A stretch of 64,000 nucleotides of DNA from the NCBI GenBank assembly GCA_021383565.1, contig CP079699.1, positions 620,001 through 684,000 on the forward strand. Direction: 5' to 3'. The notes beneath the pieces are model-generated. The model had not been told where the DNA came from and ran no database searches. It saw nothing but the letters and a program-made list of their open reading frames with translations. The position numbers and the translations under genes are program-made. Shown in pieces: positions 1,721 through 44,074 of the stretch (position 1 is its first letter; each line of letters opens with the position of its first letter). This DNA comes from Levilactobacillus brevis (GTDB lineage: Bacteria > Bacillota > Bacilli > Lactobacillales > Lactobacillaceae).

Positions 1721-4129
1721 ATGAAGATTTCATACAATTGGATTAAAGAATATTTAGACTTAAACGTAAAACCCGCTGACCTGGCGGAAAAAATCGAACG
1801 GACTTCCGTGGAAGTCGATGGCGTTACCACGCCAAGCGACGGCCTCAAGAAGATCGTGGTTGGTCACGTCCTTTCCATGGTCGCTCATCCGGACTCCGAT
1901 CATCTTCACATCTGCCAAGTTGATGTGGGTGAAGACGATCCCTTACAGATCGTGTGTGGTGCACCGAACGTGGCGGCCGGTCAAAACGTCATCGTGGCCT
2001 TACCAGGTTCCCGGATCGCAGACAACGTCAAGATTAAGAAGTCCAAGATGCGCGGGGTCCCTTCTGCCGGGATGATCTGTGCGCTTCAAGAAATTGGTTT
2101 TAGCGAAGATGTTGTGCCGAAGAAGTATGTCGATGGCATCTACGTCTTACCCGCTGATGCCAAGCCGGGCGATGCGGTTTACGACTATTTAGGCATGAAC
2201 GACAGCCTGATTGACTTGGACGTGACGCCCAACCGGGGAGACATGTTAAGCCTCTACGGGACGCTGCATGACCTGGCCGCAATTTATGACCAACCCGTTA
2301 AGTTAGATCATCCTGATGTTAAGGAAGCGGGTGCCGATATTCAGGACCAATTGGCCGTGCACGTGGATGACCAACTCTCCCCACAATACCGGATGCGGTT
2401 AGTCAAAAACGTCAAGCTGGCCCCAAGTCCAATGTGGCTTCAGATTCGCTTGTGGAACGCCGGTTTACGCCCAATCAACAACGTGGTAGATATTACCAAC
2501 TACATCATGTTGAAGTACGGTCAACCATTACACGCCTTTGACTATGACAAGTTTGCCGGCGAAGACGTTTACGTCCGGACGGCCAAGGCGGGCGAGAAGC
2601 TGACGACCTTGGACGAAAATGACCATGATCTCGATGAAAATGACATCGTGATCGCCGACGAAAAGGCGCCAATCGCCTTAGCCGGCGTTATGGGTGGTCT
2701 GAGCACGTCCATTCAGGACGGCACAACTACGGTTGCTATCGAATCTGCTGTCTTTGAACACGACCACATCCGTAAGGCGGCTCAACGACACAACCTGCAT
2801 ACGGACGCTTCCCAACGCTTCGAACGAGGCGTTAACCAGGCCGGTGTTCAGGAGGCCTTGGATGCAGCGGCCCAAATGATGAATGAATTGGCCGCTGGTG
2901 AGGTCCAAACTGGCACGGTAGTGGGCAGTGACCATATCCCCGAACCCGCCGTGATCGACATCACGTTGACCCACGTCAATGCGATTCTCGGGACGGATTT
3001 GACCATGGACCAAGTCTCCCACATCTTGGAGAGCCTGGGCTTCACGGTCGCAGTGAGCGGCGATACGTTAACGGTCACGGTGGCCGTTCGGCGTAATGAC
3101 ATTCACATTCCAGCTGATCTATTGGAAGAAATTGCCCGGATCTACGGTTATGACCAACTTCCAGCCACGTTGCCAACCGGTCGGATGACCATGGGGACGT
3201 TGACCGACAAGCAACGTCTGATGCGTGCTACGCGGCATTCACTGGAAGGGTTGGGCTTGAACCAGGCCATCTCTTACGCGTTGACGACCGAGGCCAAGGC
3301 GCAGATGTTCATGATGAAGGCTAGCGAACCGACGCACTTGGCTTGGCCAATGACGGTGGATCACGCTGTCTTACGGATGAACGTGATCTCTGGTTTGTTG
3401 GACGACATTGCCTACAACTCCGCACGGAAGGTCAAGGACGTGGCACTCTACGAACAGGGCCGGGTCTTCTACCGTGAGGATGGCAACGAACGACCAAGCG
3501 AAGAGGAACATATCGCCGGTGCCATTACCGGAACACTGATGCCTGAAGCTTGGAATCAACCAGCTAAGGCGGTCGATTTCTATCAAATGAAGGGGATCGT
3601 CGCGGCCTACTTGAAGGACATGGCGGTTAATGGTGAGGTTACCTACGTGCCAAACGCCGACATGCCGGAAATGCATCCGGGTCGGACTGCAGACGTCTTG
3701 GTTCACGGTCACCGGATTGGCTTCTTGGGTCAAATTCACCCGTTGATTGCTAAGCAGTTCAAGATTGCGGCCACATACGTCTTTGAACTGAACTTGCAGG
3801 CCATCATTGACATGCCCAAGCAAGAGAACCAATACGACGTGATCTCTCGTTACCCAGCCATCACGCGGGATATTGCGATGCTGGTAGATGACGATATCAC
3901 GAACGACCAAGTGGTCGCGCTAATCGAACGACGTGGCGGGGCATTCTTACAATCCGTCAAGCTGTTTGACGTTTACGACGGCGTGAAGGTACCGAAGGGC
4001 AAGAAGTCCTTGGCCTACACGTTGACTTACCAAGATAAACATGAAACGTTGGTTGACGATGCCGTCACCCAGGCGTTTGACAAGGTTTCTAAGCGTCTGG
4101 AAGACGACTTAGGCGCCCAGATTCGTTAA
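1721..4129 (+). CDS. pheT: Phenylalanine-tRNA ligase beta subunit
   Basis: This is the beta subunit of phenylalanyl-tRNA synthetase, which provides tRNA binding and editing of misacylated Tyr-tRNA-Phe. The 802 residues match the usual Firmicute length. An OB-fold tRNA-binding domain lies at about 40-150 ('VGHVLSMVAHPDSDHLHICQVD'-like start, shown here only in part by position). The B3/B4 editing region contains 'RPINNVVDITNYIMLKYGQP', a B5 domain lies at about 410-480, and the C-terminal ferredoxin-fold anticodon-binding domain is at about 708-800 ('SRYPAITRDIAMLVDDDI'). It is co-transcribed with pheS, and its ribosome-binding site overlaps the pheS stop. A strong terminator follows. Confidence 0.97.
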   Translation: MKISYNWIKEYLDLNVKPADLAEKIERTSVEVDGVTTPSDGLKKIVVGHVLSMVAHPDSDHLHICQVDVGEDDPLQIVCGAPNVAAGQNVIVALPGSRIADNVKIKKSKMRGVPSAGMICALQEIGFSEDVVPKKYVDGIYVLPADAKPGDAVYDYLGMNDSLIDLDVTPNRGDMLSLYGTLHDLAAIYDQPVKLDHPDVKEAGADIQDQLAVHVDDQLSPQYRMRLVKNVKLAPSPMWLQIRLWNAGLRPINNVVDITNYIMLKYGQPLHAFDYDKFAGEDVYVRTAKAGEKLTTLDENDHDLDENDIVIADEKAPIALAGVMGGLSTSIQDGTTTVAIESAVFEHDHIRKAAQRHNLHTDASQRFERGVNQAGVQEALDAAAQMMNELAAGEVQTGTVVGSDHIPEPAVIDITLTHVNAILGTDLTMDQVSHILESLGFTVAVSGDTLTVTVAVRRNDIHIPADLLEEIARIYGYDQLPATLPTGRMTMGTLTDKQRLMRATRHSLEGLGLNQAISYALTTEAKAQMFMMKASEPTHLAWPMTVDHAVLRMNVISGLLDDIAYNSARKVKDVALYEQGRVFYREDGNERPSEEEHIAGAITGTLMPEAWNQPAKAVDFYQMKGIVAAYLKDMAVNGEVTYVPNADMPEMHPGRTADVLVHGHRIGFLGQIHPLIAKQFKIAATYVFELNLQAIIDMPKQENQYDVISRYPAITRDIAMLVDDDITNDQVVALIERRGGAFLQSVKLFDVYDGVKVPKGKKSLAYTLTYQDKHETLVDDAVTQAFDKVSKRLEDDLGAQIR

Positions 4130-7310: not shown

Positions 7311-7411
7311 CTTGGTCGATTTGTCACGGGGCTTTTGCTTGTGTTTGGCGGCCGTTTCCGGTAGGATATGAGGCACAGCTAGGCACCTTCAACGTAAAGA
7401 CGTTTACGCCA

Positions 7412-7449
7412 AACAAGCGGTCCACCAATTATCTGGCGGACCGCTTGTT
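7412..7449. terminator. Bidirectional hairpin terminator
   Basis: A perfect 12-bp inverted repeat, AACAAGCGGTCC / GGACCGCTTGTT, has A- and T-rich flanks. It separates the plus-strand HesB-like gene from the reverse-strand YfhO gene. Confidence 0.75.
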
Positions 7450-7511
7450 TTCATTTCATTCATTGAGGTTGATGGCTGTGCGCAGCGGGTTCTTCGGATC
7501 AAGCATCTCTT

Positions 7512-7722
7512 GACAATTTGCCGTTGACTGGTCGCCTTGCCGTTCGCGAAATCTAGGCTGGAACGCTGGGGTAGGCCGGTCCGAGCCATAGAGCGGTCTC
7601 GGACCTTGCTTTGAGCCGAAAAGCCCTCGTCTCAAAGTCACCAATTTATCAGCAAGAATCGCTGATAAATTCCCCGGCTGAGCCTAGATTTCGCTTCACT
7701 CACGGCTACGTTGACGATTGTC
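7512..7722 (-). repeat. Structured intergenic repeat, full copy A (reverse)
   Basis: Read on the reverse strand, the element starts with GACAATCG and ends with CGCGAACGGCAAGGCG. A perfect closing helix pairs CGAAATCTAGGCT with AGCCTAGATTTCG. It encloses three hairpins: AATTTATCAGC/GCTGATAAATT, CTTTGAG/CTCAAAG and GGTCCGAG/CTCGGACC. Copy E at 43882 shares the termini, the helix order and the loop ACCGCTC..TGG, but has different stem bases that still pair. It lies in an intergenic region. I do not recognise it as a named RNA family. Confidence 0.85.
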
Positions 7723-7789: not shown

Positions 7790-7877
7790 TTACAATCGTG
7801 GCAGAGTTCGCCAGGCGTGCAGCCGACCGTTTACCTATTGGTAGGCGGAACGCCTGACTGGCGCGAACGGTAAGGCG
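7790..7877 (+). repeat. Structured intergenic repeat, minimal copy F
   Basis: This short relative begins ACAATCGTGGC and ends GCGAACGGTAAGGCG, like the full copies, but the interior is a single extended stem-loop. The outer helix pairs CGCCAG with CTGGCG and GGCGT with ACGCC. The inner helix pairs CCGTTTACC with GGTAGGCGG using two G-U pairs. It lies between copy A and the 3' end of the YfhO gene. Confidence 0.7.
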
Positions 7878-12760: not shown

Positions 12761-12805
12761 AAGCAACGTCAACGAGCCCATGGGCTGGTGGGCGTTGCTT
12801 TTTTT
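12761..12805 (+). terminator. Terminator of the PBP gene
   Basis: AAGCAACG...CGTTGCTT hairpin followed by TTTTTTT. Confidence 0.9.
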
Positions 12806-12813
12806 AGCAGAAA

Positions 12814-12996
12814 TAAATTTAGTGTGGCTGAGAAAATGGCGTCTTTGAGATGCGGGCTGACGGCTCAAAGCGAGGAACAAGATCGCCCTTTAGCTAGTCC
12901 CGTCCTGCCCATCGCGATCCAGACCAAATTTGGGGAATGGTAAGGCGGCCAGTCCGCGACTAGCCGATTATCATGGATGGTATCCTTTTCATACTA
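12814..12996 (+). repeat. Structured intergenic repeat, degenerate copy B
   Basis: The 3' half matches other copies closely (GTCCTGCCCATCGCGATCC, then ACCAAATTTGG, then GGTAAGGCGGCCAG). Hairpin 2 is present as CTTTGAG/CTCAAAG at 12843-12870. The 5' half of the closing helix is only partly preserved (AAATTTAGTGTGGCT, imperfect pairing). A tail of about 40 bases (GCGACTAG...ATTATCATGGATGGTATCC) is shared with copy C. Confidence 0.75.
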
Positions 12997-20525: not shown

Positions 20526-20562
20526 ACTGAAGGTTGAAAGCTATAAAATAGTTAGAATCCGT

Positions 20563-20710
20563 GGTATGACAAGGATACCATCCATGATAATATCCTAGTC
20601 GCATACCGGCCGCCTTACCGTTCGCCAAATTTGGTCTGGATCGCGGTGGGCAGGACGGGAAAAGCCAAAGGGCGGTCCCCACAGCGCCGGAATCTCTGGC
20701 AGTCGCAGAT
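20563..20710 (-). repeat. Structured intergenic repeat, 5'-truncated copy C (reverse)
   Basis: Read on the reverse strand, it contains GTCCTGCCCACCGCGATCC, then GACCAAATTTGGCGAACGG and TAAGGCGGCC. A tail hairpin GGTATG..AGGATA/TATCCT..CATACC (plus 20563-20607) follows and is shared with copy B. Hairpin 3 keeps the loop motif ACCGCCC..TGGC. The 5' strand of the closing helix is missing. Confidence 0.75.
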
Positions 20711-20773
20711 GGTGTTGATGGCTAGTTTAATGGCGATAGGCCCTGTCAGCTGGGAATCGGGGAGTATTCACAA

Positions 20774-20964
20774 ACTTTCAATCTTTAGTGCTAAATCTAA
20801 CGCATAAATCGACACGGCCATTGCGGTCGTGTGCGGTTGAAAAGAGAAGTCGTCGACAGCTACAAGCTGTGGGCGGCTTCTTTGTTTGCCGAACGTGGCC
20901 GACGGCTGCCAGTGACCCCCGATTGTCCGTTAGTTGGTTCGGAAGCTGACAAGCCGTTTTTTTT
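20774..20964 (+). other. Structured intergenic segment ending in a terminator-like hairpin
   Basis: Three hairpins follow one another: ACACGGCC/GGTCGTGT (20812-20832), AGAAG..CAGC/GCTG..CTTCT (20845-20881) and ACGGCT..CAG..CCGA/TCGG..CTG..AGCCGT followed by eight T (20902-20964). CTTTCAA at about 20774 can also pair with TTGAAAAG at about 20837. This could be a small RNA or an attenuator leader for the gene at 21092. No known family is recognised. Confidence 0.45.
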
Positions 20965-24477: not shown

Positions 24478-24590
24478 TTGTATTTGTGGACTTCCACAGC
24501 TGCAACCGCTCGGGACGAGTCATTAAGTTTTCCGCTTGCGGAGCACTTGTTTTCGGCGAGTCTAAGTCTTAAATTATAAGGAGGTGCACA
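24478..24590 (+). promoter_or_regulatory. Probable L21 leader RNA
   Basis: About 120 bases lie between the promoter and rplU and contain short hairpins (for example GTGGA..TCCAC and TCCGC..GCGGA). In Firmicutes a structured L21 leader occupies this place and is thought to mediate feedback by a ribosomal protein. The assignment rests on position and local pairing. Confidence 0.55.
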
Positions 24591-28513: not shown

Positions 28514-28620
28514 TTACGGGTTTTGTGGGGATGAATGGCTCTTGGATAGTTAGCGAGGGAACGTGATTCGTTTTTTAGCGGGTCTGAAAACAGCAATTAA
28601 GTATTGCTACGGTGCAATGA

Positions 28621-28730
28621 CTAGTTGGGAAGGGTGAAGACCCAAGGCGAGGAAAAGAGCGGGGTTTTGGCCTCTTTCCGTCCTGCCCACGGCGTTCTCG
28701 CCCAAACTTGGCGAACGGTAAGGCGGCTAG
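28621..28730 (+). repeat. Structured intergenic repeat, 5'-truncated copy D
   Basis: The 3' half is well kept: CGTCCTGCCCACGGCGTTC, CCCAAACTTGGCGAACGG and TAAGGCGGCTAG. Hairpin 2 is TTGGG/CCCAA and hairpin 3 is GGAAA.GAG/CTC.TTTCC, again with sequences differing from other copies. The 5' strand of the closing helix is absent. Confidence 0.72.
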
Positions 28731-43881: not shown

Positions 43882-44074
43882 GACAATCGTAGCCGTGAGT
43901 GAGTCAAATCTGGGCTCAGCCGGGGGCATGATGTCTGGTGGGTTACCAGACATCATGCGGCGACTTGGAAACGCCGATTCTTGGCGGTTTCAAGCGAGGT
44001 GCGAGACCGCTCCTTGGCTCGCACCGGTCCTTCCCCGCGTTCCAGCCCAGATTTGGCGAACGGTAAGGCGGGCA
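43882..44074 (+). repeat. Structured intergenic repeat, full copy E
   Basis: It runs from GACAATCGTAGCCGTGAGTG to GGCGAACGGTAAGGCG. The closing helix CAAATCTGGGCT (43905-43916) pairs perfectly with AGCCCAGATTTG (44044-44055), and outer GCCGT pairs with ACGGT. It encloses three hairpins: 13 bp GCATGATGTCTGG/CCAGACATCATGC (43926-43958), CTTGGAAACGCC/GGCGGTTTCAAG (43964-43994, one mismatch) and GGTGCGAG/CTCGCACC (43998-44025). It lies between priA and fmt and contains no ORF. Confidence 0.88.

Follow-up and report, generated by a model that had tools for sequence, protein, structure and literature searches.

Described small repeats and the present locus

The BOX elements of Streptococcus pneumoniae, which are present as more than 100 intergenic copies, are modular and strongly folded, carry terminal inverted repeats (TIRs) and target-site duplications (TSDs), are over-represented between convergent genes and are treated as non-autonomous mobile parasites (PMC3049150). 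Bacterial MITEs are short, non-coding and intergenic, with TIRs, direct repeats and stable folded transcripts (PMC10969869), and Efa-1 of Enterococcus faecalis is a 163-nt intergenic repeat with 65 copies and paired stem-loops (PMC2267715). Here we analysed a 64,000-nt stretch of the Levilactobacillus brevis genome (contig CP079699.1, positions 620,001 to 684,000; hereafter the window), in which the focal site is probably a copy of a non-autonomous MITE/BOX-like interspersed repeat of the Lactobacillales whose branched fold is kept for spreading.

The Levilactobacillus repeat behaves like BOX elements and MITEs in its copy number, modularity, fold, TIRs and TSDs and in its siting between convergent genes. 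Unlike BOX, it has a closed multi-branch fold, forms head-to-head dimers, is not AT-rich and occurs in two bacterial families, and its modules presumably differ from boxA, boxB and boxC in sequence. The long TIR units of the family resemble MITEs in possessing both terminal inverted repeats and target-site duplications, whereas the repeat departs from MITEs in general in being GC-rich, in an internal fold that covariation shows to be conserved between genera, in solo modules without TIRs or TSDs and in that no parent IS was found for it in the L. brevis genome. Compared by description, Efa-1 is similar in size, copy number and stem-loops, and a diverged relative of the present repeat reaches at least 40 copies in genomes of another Lactobacillales family (f2, see below); Efa-1 is described, however, as two adjacent stem-loops rather than as a closed branched fold. 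Efa-1 may be related to the present repeat. The EFAR repeats of E. faecalis may be the same as Efa-1.

Repeat copies in the window and their predicted fold

A covariance model built from 28 copies of the L. brevis genome (R1) has five matches in the window. The focal copy, copy A, is a type-A core of ~177 nt on the reverse strand (GTAGCCGTGAGTG to GCGAACGGCAAGGCG, 7533-7709; 178.2 bits, E = 5.7e-44), and this conserved unit is smaller than the interval 7512-7722 given in the sequence-only reading of the DNA. BLAST and R1 together bound the repeat core of ~175 nt at GTAGCCGTGAGTG and GCGAACGGYAAGGCG, and the flanks of solo copies cease to match within ~14 nt of the core ends. Copy E belongs to the same repeat family and is found on the forward strand at 43889-44070 (150.4 bits), where its stems are at 43906/44044 (closing helix), 43998/44018 (hairpin 3) and 43926/43946 (hairpin 1) and the arms quoted earlier span 43906-44054. 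The other matches are a partial type-A copy (12804-12947, forward strand, 81.8 bits), a diverged copy (28550-28725, forward strand, 33.0 bits) and a diverged core (20611-20737) within a small TIR-bounded unit of 264 nt on the reverse strand (20526-20789, ACTGAAGGTTGAAAG..CTTTCAATCTTTAGT), whose ACTGAAGGTTGAAAG ends are near-perfect. Genome-wide (2.68 Mb), R1 has 137 matches at E<=0.1 and ~125 at E<1e-3. The sole Rfam match in the window is a ribosomal protein L21 leader at 24494-24573 on the forward strand (RF00559, 61.2 bits).

The core is predicted to fold, in order, into a closing helix P1 of 14 bp, a conserved internal loop (CA / GUUCC), an inner stem P2 and hairpins 1, 2 and 3. In copy A, all on the reverse strand, the 5' arm of P1 (GCGAAATCTAGGCT) is at 7681-7694 and its 3' arm (AGCCTAGATTTCGC) at 7546-7559; the arms quoted earlier, at forward-strand positions 7549-7559 and 7681-7691, are extended by this to the full 14 bp. 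P2 consists of GCCGGGG (7672-7678) and CCCCAGC (7565-7571), whose pairs are 94-99% Watson-Crick in 224 copies. Hairpin 1 (AATTTATCAGC/GCTGATAAATT, 7643-7671), predicted from the fold and from a copy-by-copy check of its stem, is the most variable arm; hairpin 2 (GACTTTGAGACG..CGGCTCAAAGC, 7608-7639), with the conserved motif GAGAC/GGCUC and its A.G mismatch, is present in all genera examined; and hairpin 3 (GGTCCGAG..CTCGGACC, 7578-7605), with a conserved ACCG/TGGC loop base, is missing from several other genera. The predicted fold of the focal strand has a minimum free energy of -92.1 kcal/mol (z = -6.2), which none of 200 shuffled sequences equalled.

Copy A is accompanied by a reduced head-to-head partner arm on the forward strand (7805-7877), whose outward-facing end GCGAACGGTAAGGCG (7863-7877) has 0 mismatches to the inverted type-A end, and the core and this arm together form a palindrome-like unit of ~345 nt. 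Adjoining the element, and also between the convergent genes, is a bidirectional terminator-like stem (AACAAGCGGTCC..GGACCGCTTGTT, 7411-7451) that is common to relatives.

Covariation and the folded strand

That copies A and E share one architecture with differing stems was claimed in the sequence-only reading, and all twelve arms that it quoted were located exactly. It was right, too, about the loop of hairpin 3, where the AGACCG..GGCT columns vary little or not at all across 28 copies. Absence of covariation above the phylogenetic background, which it had named as the outcome that would speak against it, was not what we found. An R-scape-like script, which is not R-scape itself, was run with an APC-corrected G statistic, a FastTree tree and a null in which each column retains its number of changes while these are redistributed over branches; its input was 207 non-redundant cores, whose subfamily structure limits power. 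Five pairs were significant at E<=0.05: 27-153 in the closing helix and 107-130, 108-129, 109-128 and 110-127 in hairpin 3. No significantly covarying pair was found outside the predicted structure among the 207 cores under this tree-aware null.

In a MAFFT alignment of 224 cores that was not fitted to the structure, Watson-Crick pairing reaches 90% or more at most positions of P1, P2, hairpin 2 and hairpin 3, and a pair takes several types, such as 106 GC, 68 UA and 39 AU at 27-153 and 87 CG, 81 AU, 26 GC and 21 UA at 109-128. As hairpin 1 aligns poorly, it was scored copy by copy; its stem reaches at least 7 bp in 197 of the 214 copies, and the 5' arm has 92 distinct versions, which bears out for the family what had been noticed in two copies, a hairpin that differs and yet pairs. 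Across genera, changes on both sides were observed in 48 of 49 pairs (56 sequences, structure-fitted alignment A3), where 95.1% of the cells are paired, compared with 66.0% when shuffled and no more than 50% when slid.

The distribution of pair changes over the tree differs between internal branches (136 compensatory, 40 G-U and 26 broken) and terminal branches (104 compensatory, 108 G-U and 146 broken). With moderate confidence, we interpret this as a fold that is kept in multiplying lineages and erodes in resident copies, as one would expect of a fold that serves spreading. A similar branch pattern would arise if mildly harmful changes were purged, and ordinary structured RNAs, too, show some excess of decay on terminal branches.

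Template switching in quasi-palindromes, a known process for inverted repeats with short loops, copies one arm onto the other and could produce paired changes by mutation, without structural selection. The high variability and short loop of hairpin 1 fit this process, which is a partial rival chiefly for the short hairpins. Against it, pair 27-153 covaries in the closing helix too, across 126 nt, conservation across genera extends to specific loops and junctions, and the propagating branches are enriched in compensatory over broken pairs. We regard it as an unlikely account of the paired changes.

The changes also bear on which strand folds. By parsimony, changes away from Watson-Crick pairing led to G-U in 142 cases and to A-C in 78 (p = 2e-5), and returns to Watson-Crick came 41 times from G-U and 5 times from A-C; moreover, the forward strand of the repeat outfolds the reverse strand in 91% of copies. 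These results suggest that one strand is the selected form. The G-U excess sits in few pairs, and where Watson-Crick pairing is 90% or higher the hand-summed counts are near even (93 G-U and 77 A-C). Because a G.T wobble favours single-stranded DNA too, an RNA form is not proven.

Distribution across the Lactobacillales

R1 matches were found in 33 of 35 genomes of the genus, most of which has tens of copies; two genomes, G011 and G024, have no significant match. In an exact pattern scan, all matches were from Levilactobacillus species apart from one Lactobacillus sp. Searched with a covariance model built across genera (R2), 90 of 301 Lactobacillaceae genomes, representing 14 of 40 genera, contain the family. 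Weak matches led to a repeat in a second bacterial family of the Lactobacillales, f2, with at least 40 copies in each of two genomes (G321 and G384) and ~10 in a third (G377); this repeat has the same P2/UUUCC/GAGAC-GGCUC layout and the ends GAAATTTC. With the reciprocal model built from f2 (R3), the Lactobacillaceae copies match weakly (E 0.004-0.03), and the best four matches are all on known cores; homology of the f2 and Lactobacillaceae repeats is thus likely, although not proven. In one genome of another genus (G071, genus g38), copies such as those at C4:115736-116219 and C18:28667-29149 form direct head-to-tail dimers ~327 nt apart rather than head-to-head ones.

At gathering thresholds and at E<=1, no Rfam family was found on the cores at loci of L. 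brevis and other genera, and a snoTBR5 match on the core was dismissed as far below its threshold. We also found no description of this repeat in the literature searched. Plasmid, phage and viral collections gave no match when queried with Levilactobacillus copies. A query from another genus matched only two diverged, unannotated copies on plasmids of Lacticaseibacillus paracasei (3012-3157 of NZ_CP044366.1 and 3012-3181 of NZ_CP064306.1), which adjoin a sugar ABC transporter operon and a GH13 gene at their 3' ends. In two genera, T-box leaders scoring just under the gathering threshold are near repeat copies (L004, 1808-2007, forward strand; L097, 1204-1397, reverse strand), an arrangement that recalls the pneumococcal BOX/T-box composite.

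Mobility, siting and the likely beneficiary of the fold

The repeat occurs in three forms: type-A cores on their own (solo), type-A cores paired head-to-head with a diverged type-B core, and TIR units with one or two cores. All 17 close core pairs are head-to-head, and an inverted type-A 3' end is found upstream of 35 of the 210 type-A copies, the focal copy included, compared with 4 in the control orientation. Many copies are within units of ~600 nt bounded by 15-bp TIRs (ACTGAAGGTTGAAAG..CTTTCAACCTTCAGT), and the L. brevis genome contains 57 TIR ends with at most one mismatch, compared with 2 control matches, and 20 paired units. Six of these 20 are flanked by identical target duplications of 5 bp (e.g., TGCTA, AAATA and TGATA) and five more by duplications matching at 4 of 5 bp, while further TIR units show 6-bp duplications at a 1-bp offset. 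Neither an autonomous element nor a cognate enzyme was found between the TIRs examined in the L. brevis genome, nor was a parent IS seen there between lone TIR ends. Lone ACTGAAGGTTGAAAG-type ends with no recognizable core are found in short intergenic spaces (e.g., G000, contig C1, 37889, 586832, 873717, 949143 and 1179242) and are possible tiny derivatives of the TIR units.

Solo copies of the focal type end sharply, with no target duplication. An 11/15 match upstream raised the possibility that the focal copy arose by decay of a ACTGAAGG-TIR unit; this was rejected, as the solo/dimer subfamily to which the focal copy belongs has no enrichment of the ACTGAAGG TIR. No solo copy yielded a precise empty site; among the L. 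paracasei plasmids, the flanks were too diverged or the search was swamped by IS matches. At the focal locus, the element is absent from three relatives (G009, G010 and G019), whose intergenic region is short, and four others (G022, G028, G030 and G003) differ in the copies, orientations or units that they carry. As the right-hand end GCGAACGGTAAGGCGAYTGG is common to G022 and the focal locus, part of the focal insertion may predate the G022 split. In G018 and G158, cores are nearly identical but their flanks are unrelated, which suggests that they spread recently.

Intergenic copies, classified by a simple ORF heuristic, are found 34 times between convergent genes, 14 times between divergent genes and 49 times between genes on the same strand, compared with a baseline of 84, 77 and 278, respectively. 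At the same-strand sites, 21 copies are oriented with the genes and 28 against them, without strand bias. Both the siting and the orientation speak against a cis-acting mRNA element. Siting between convergent genes has also been reported for BOX, RUP and SPRITE (PMC3049150).

These results also bear on whether the repeat is a structured RNA, regulatory or trans-acting, that benefits the host, was multiplied and is under selection at each resident copy. Unpaired motifs conserved across genera (the CUCAG..GUUCCAG internal loop and the GAGAC..GGCUC hairpin), the overall preference for G-U over A-C intermediates and the better folding of the forward strand would all fit such an RNA. Against it are the unbiased orientation at same-strand sites, the lineage-specific insertions, the many broken pairs on terminal branches, the two genomes of the genus that have no match and the near-even G-U and A-C counts at the best-conserved pairs, and we think it improbable. 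The sequence-only reading had concluded that structure, not sequence, is selected. The covariation behind that conclusion is real and beyond chance; a functional cellular RNA, if that was implied, does not follow, as the copies are mobile, lineage-specific and without consistent orientation to genes, and as broken pairs gather in resident copies and not in propagating lineages. For the same reasons, selection more likely favours spreading than a function at each individual site, and the likely beneficiary of the kept structure is the mobile element.

As to what may move the repeat, its core shares a GTAG start and the formation of inverted dimers with REPs and REPINs (PMC3733652), so that a Y1 (RAYT) transposase acting on single-stranded DNA was considered. 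The GTAG ends point inward in the dimers, however, the module is 175 nt and branched rather than 20-40 nt, no Y1_Tnp is found in several high-copy genomes (e.g., G002, G003, G018 and G029), and the single Y1_Tnp of the L. brevis genome is on a small contig (C3). A REP/REPIN-type element is highly improbable. For the MITE/BOX-like repeat that we favour, we propose that a folded single strand, either RNA or DNA exposed in replication or transposition, would be recognized by a trans-acting enzyme of transposition or integration, so that fold-keeping lineages would spread while inserted copies would slowly decay. More tentatively, the repeats of the two bacterial families may belong to an undescribed mobile superfamily found throughout the Lactobacillales, whose spreading unit could be a specifically folded single strand (RNA, as in a SINE-like element, or single-stranded DNA), whose branched fold and conserved junction could be the substrate of the putative enzyme, with compensatory upkeep across at least two bacterial families, and whose vehicles could be the solo core, the head-to-head dimer and the TIR unit; we consider this broader proposal possible rather than probable.

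Significance

The best reading of the repeat is that it represents a new family of non-autonomous MITE/BOX-like repeats with no Rfam entry and no description in the literature searched. MITE-like bacterial repeats are usually viewed as defined by their ends, with folding as a by-product; the interior of the present repeat shows covariation above background and junction motifs shared across genera, at tens to more than 100 copies per genome in food-relevant bacteria. As a family of structured elements that has gone unannotated, it bears on the annotation and comparative genomics of lactic-acid bacteria. It also opens a long-standing question to experiment, namely whether small bacterial repeats can spread by way of a nucleic-acid fold that is itself the selected substrate, and which enzyme reads that fold.
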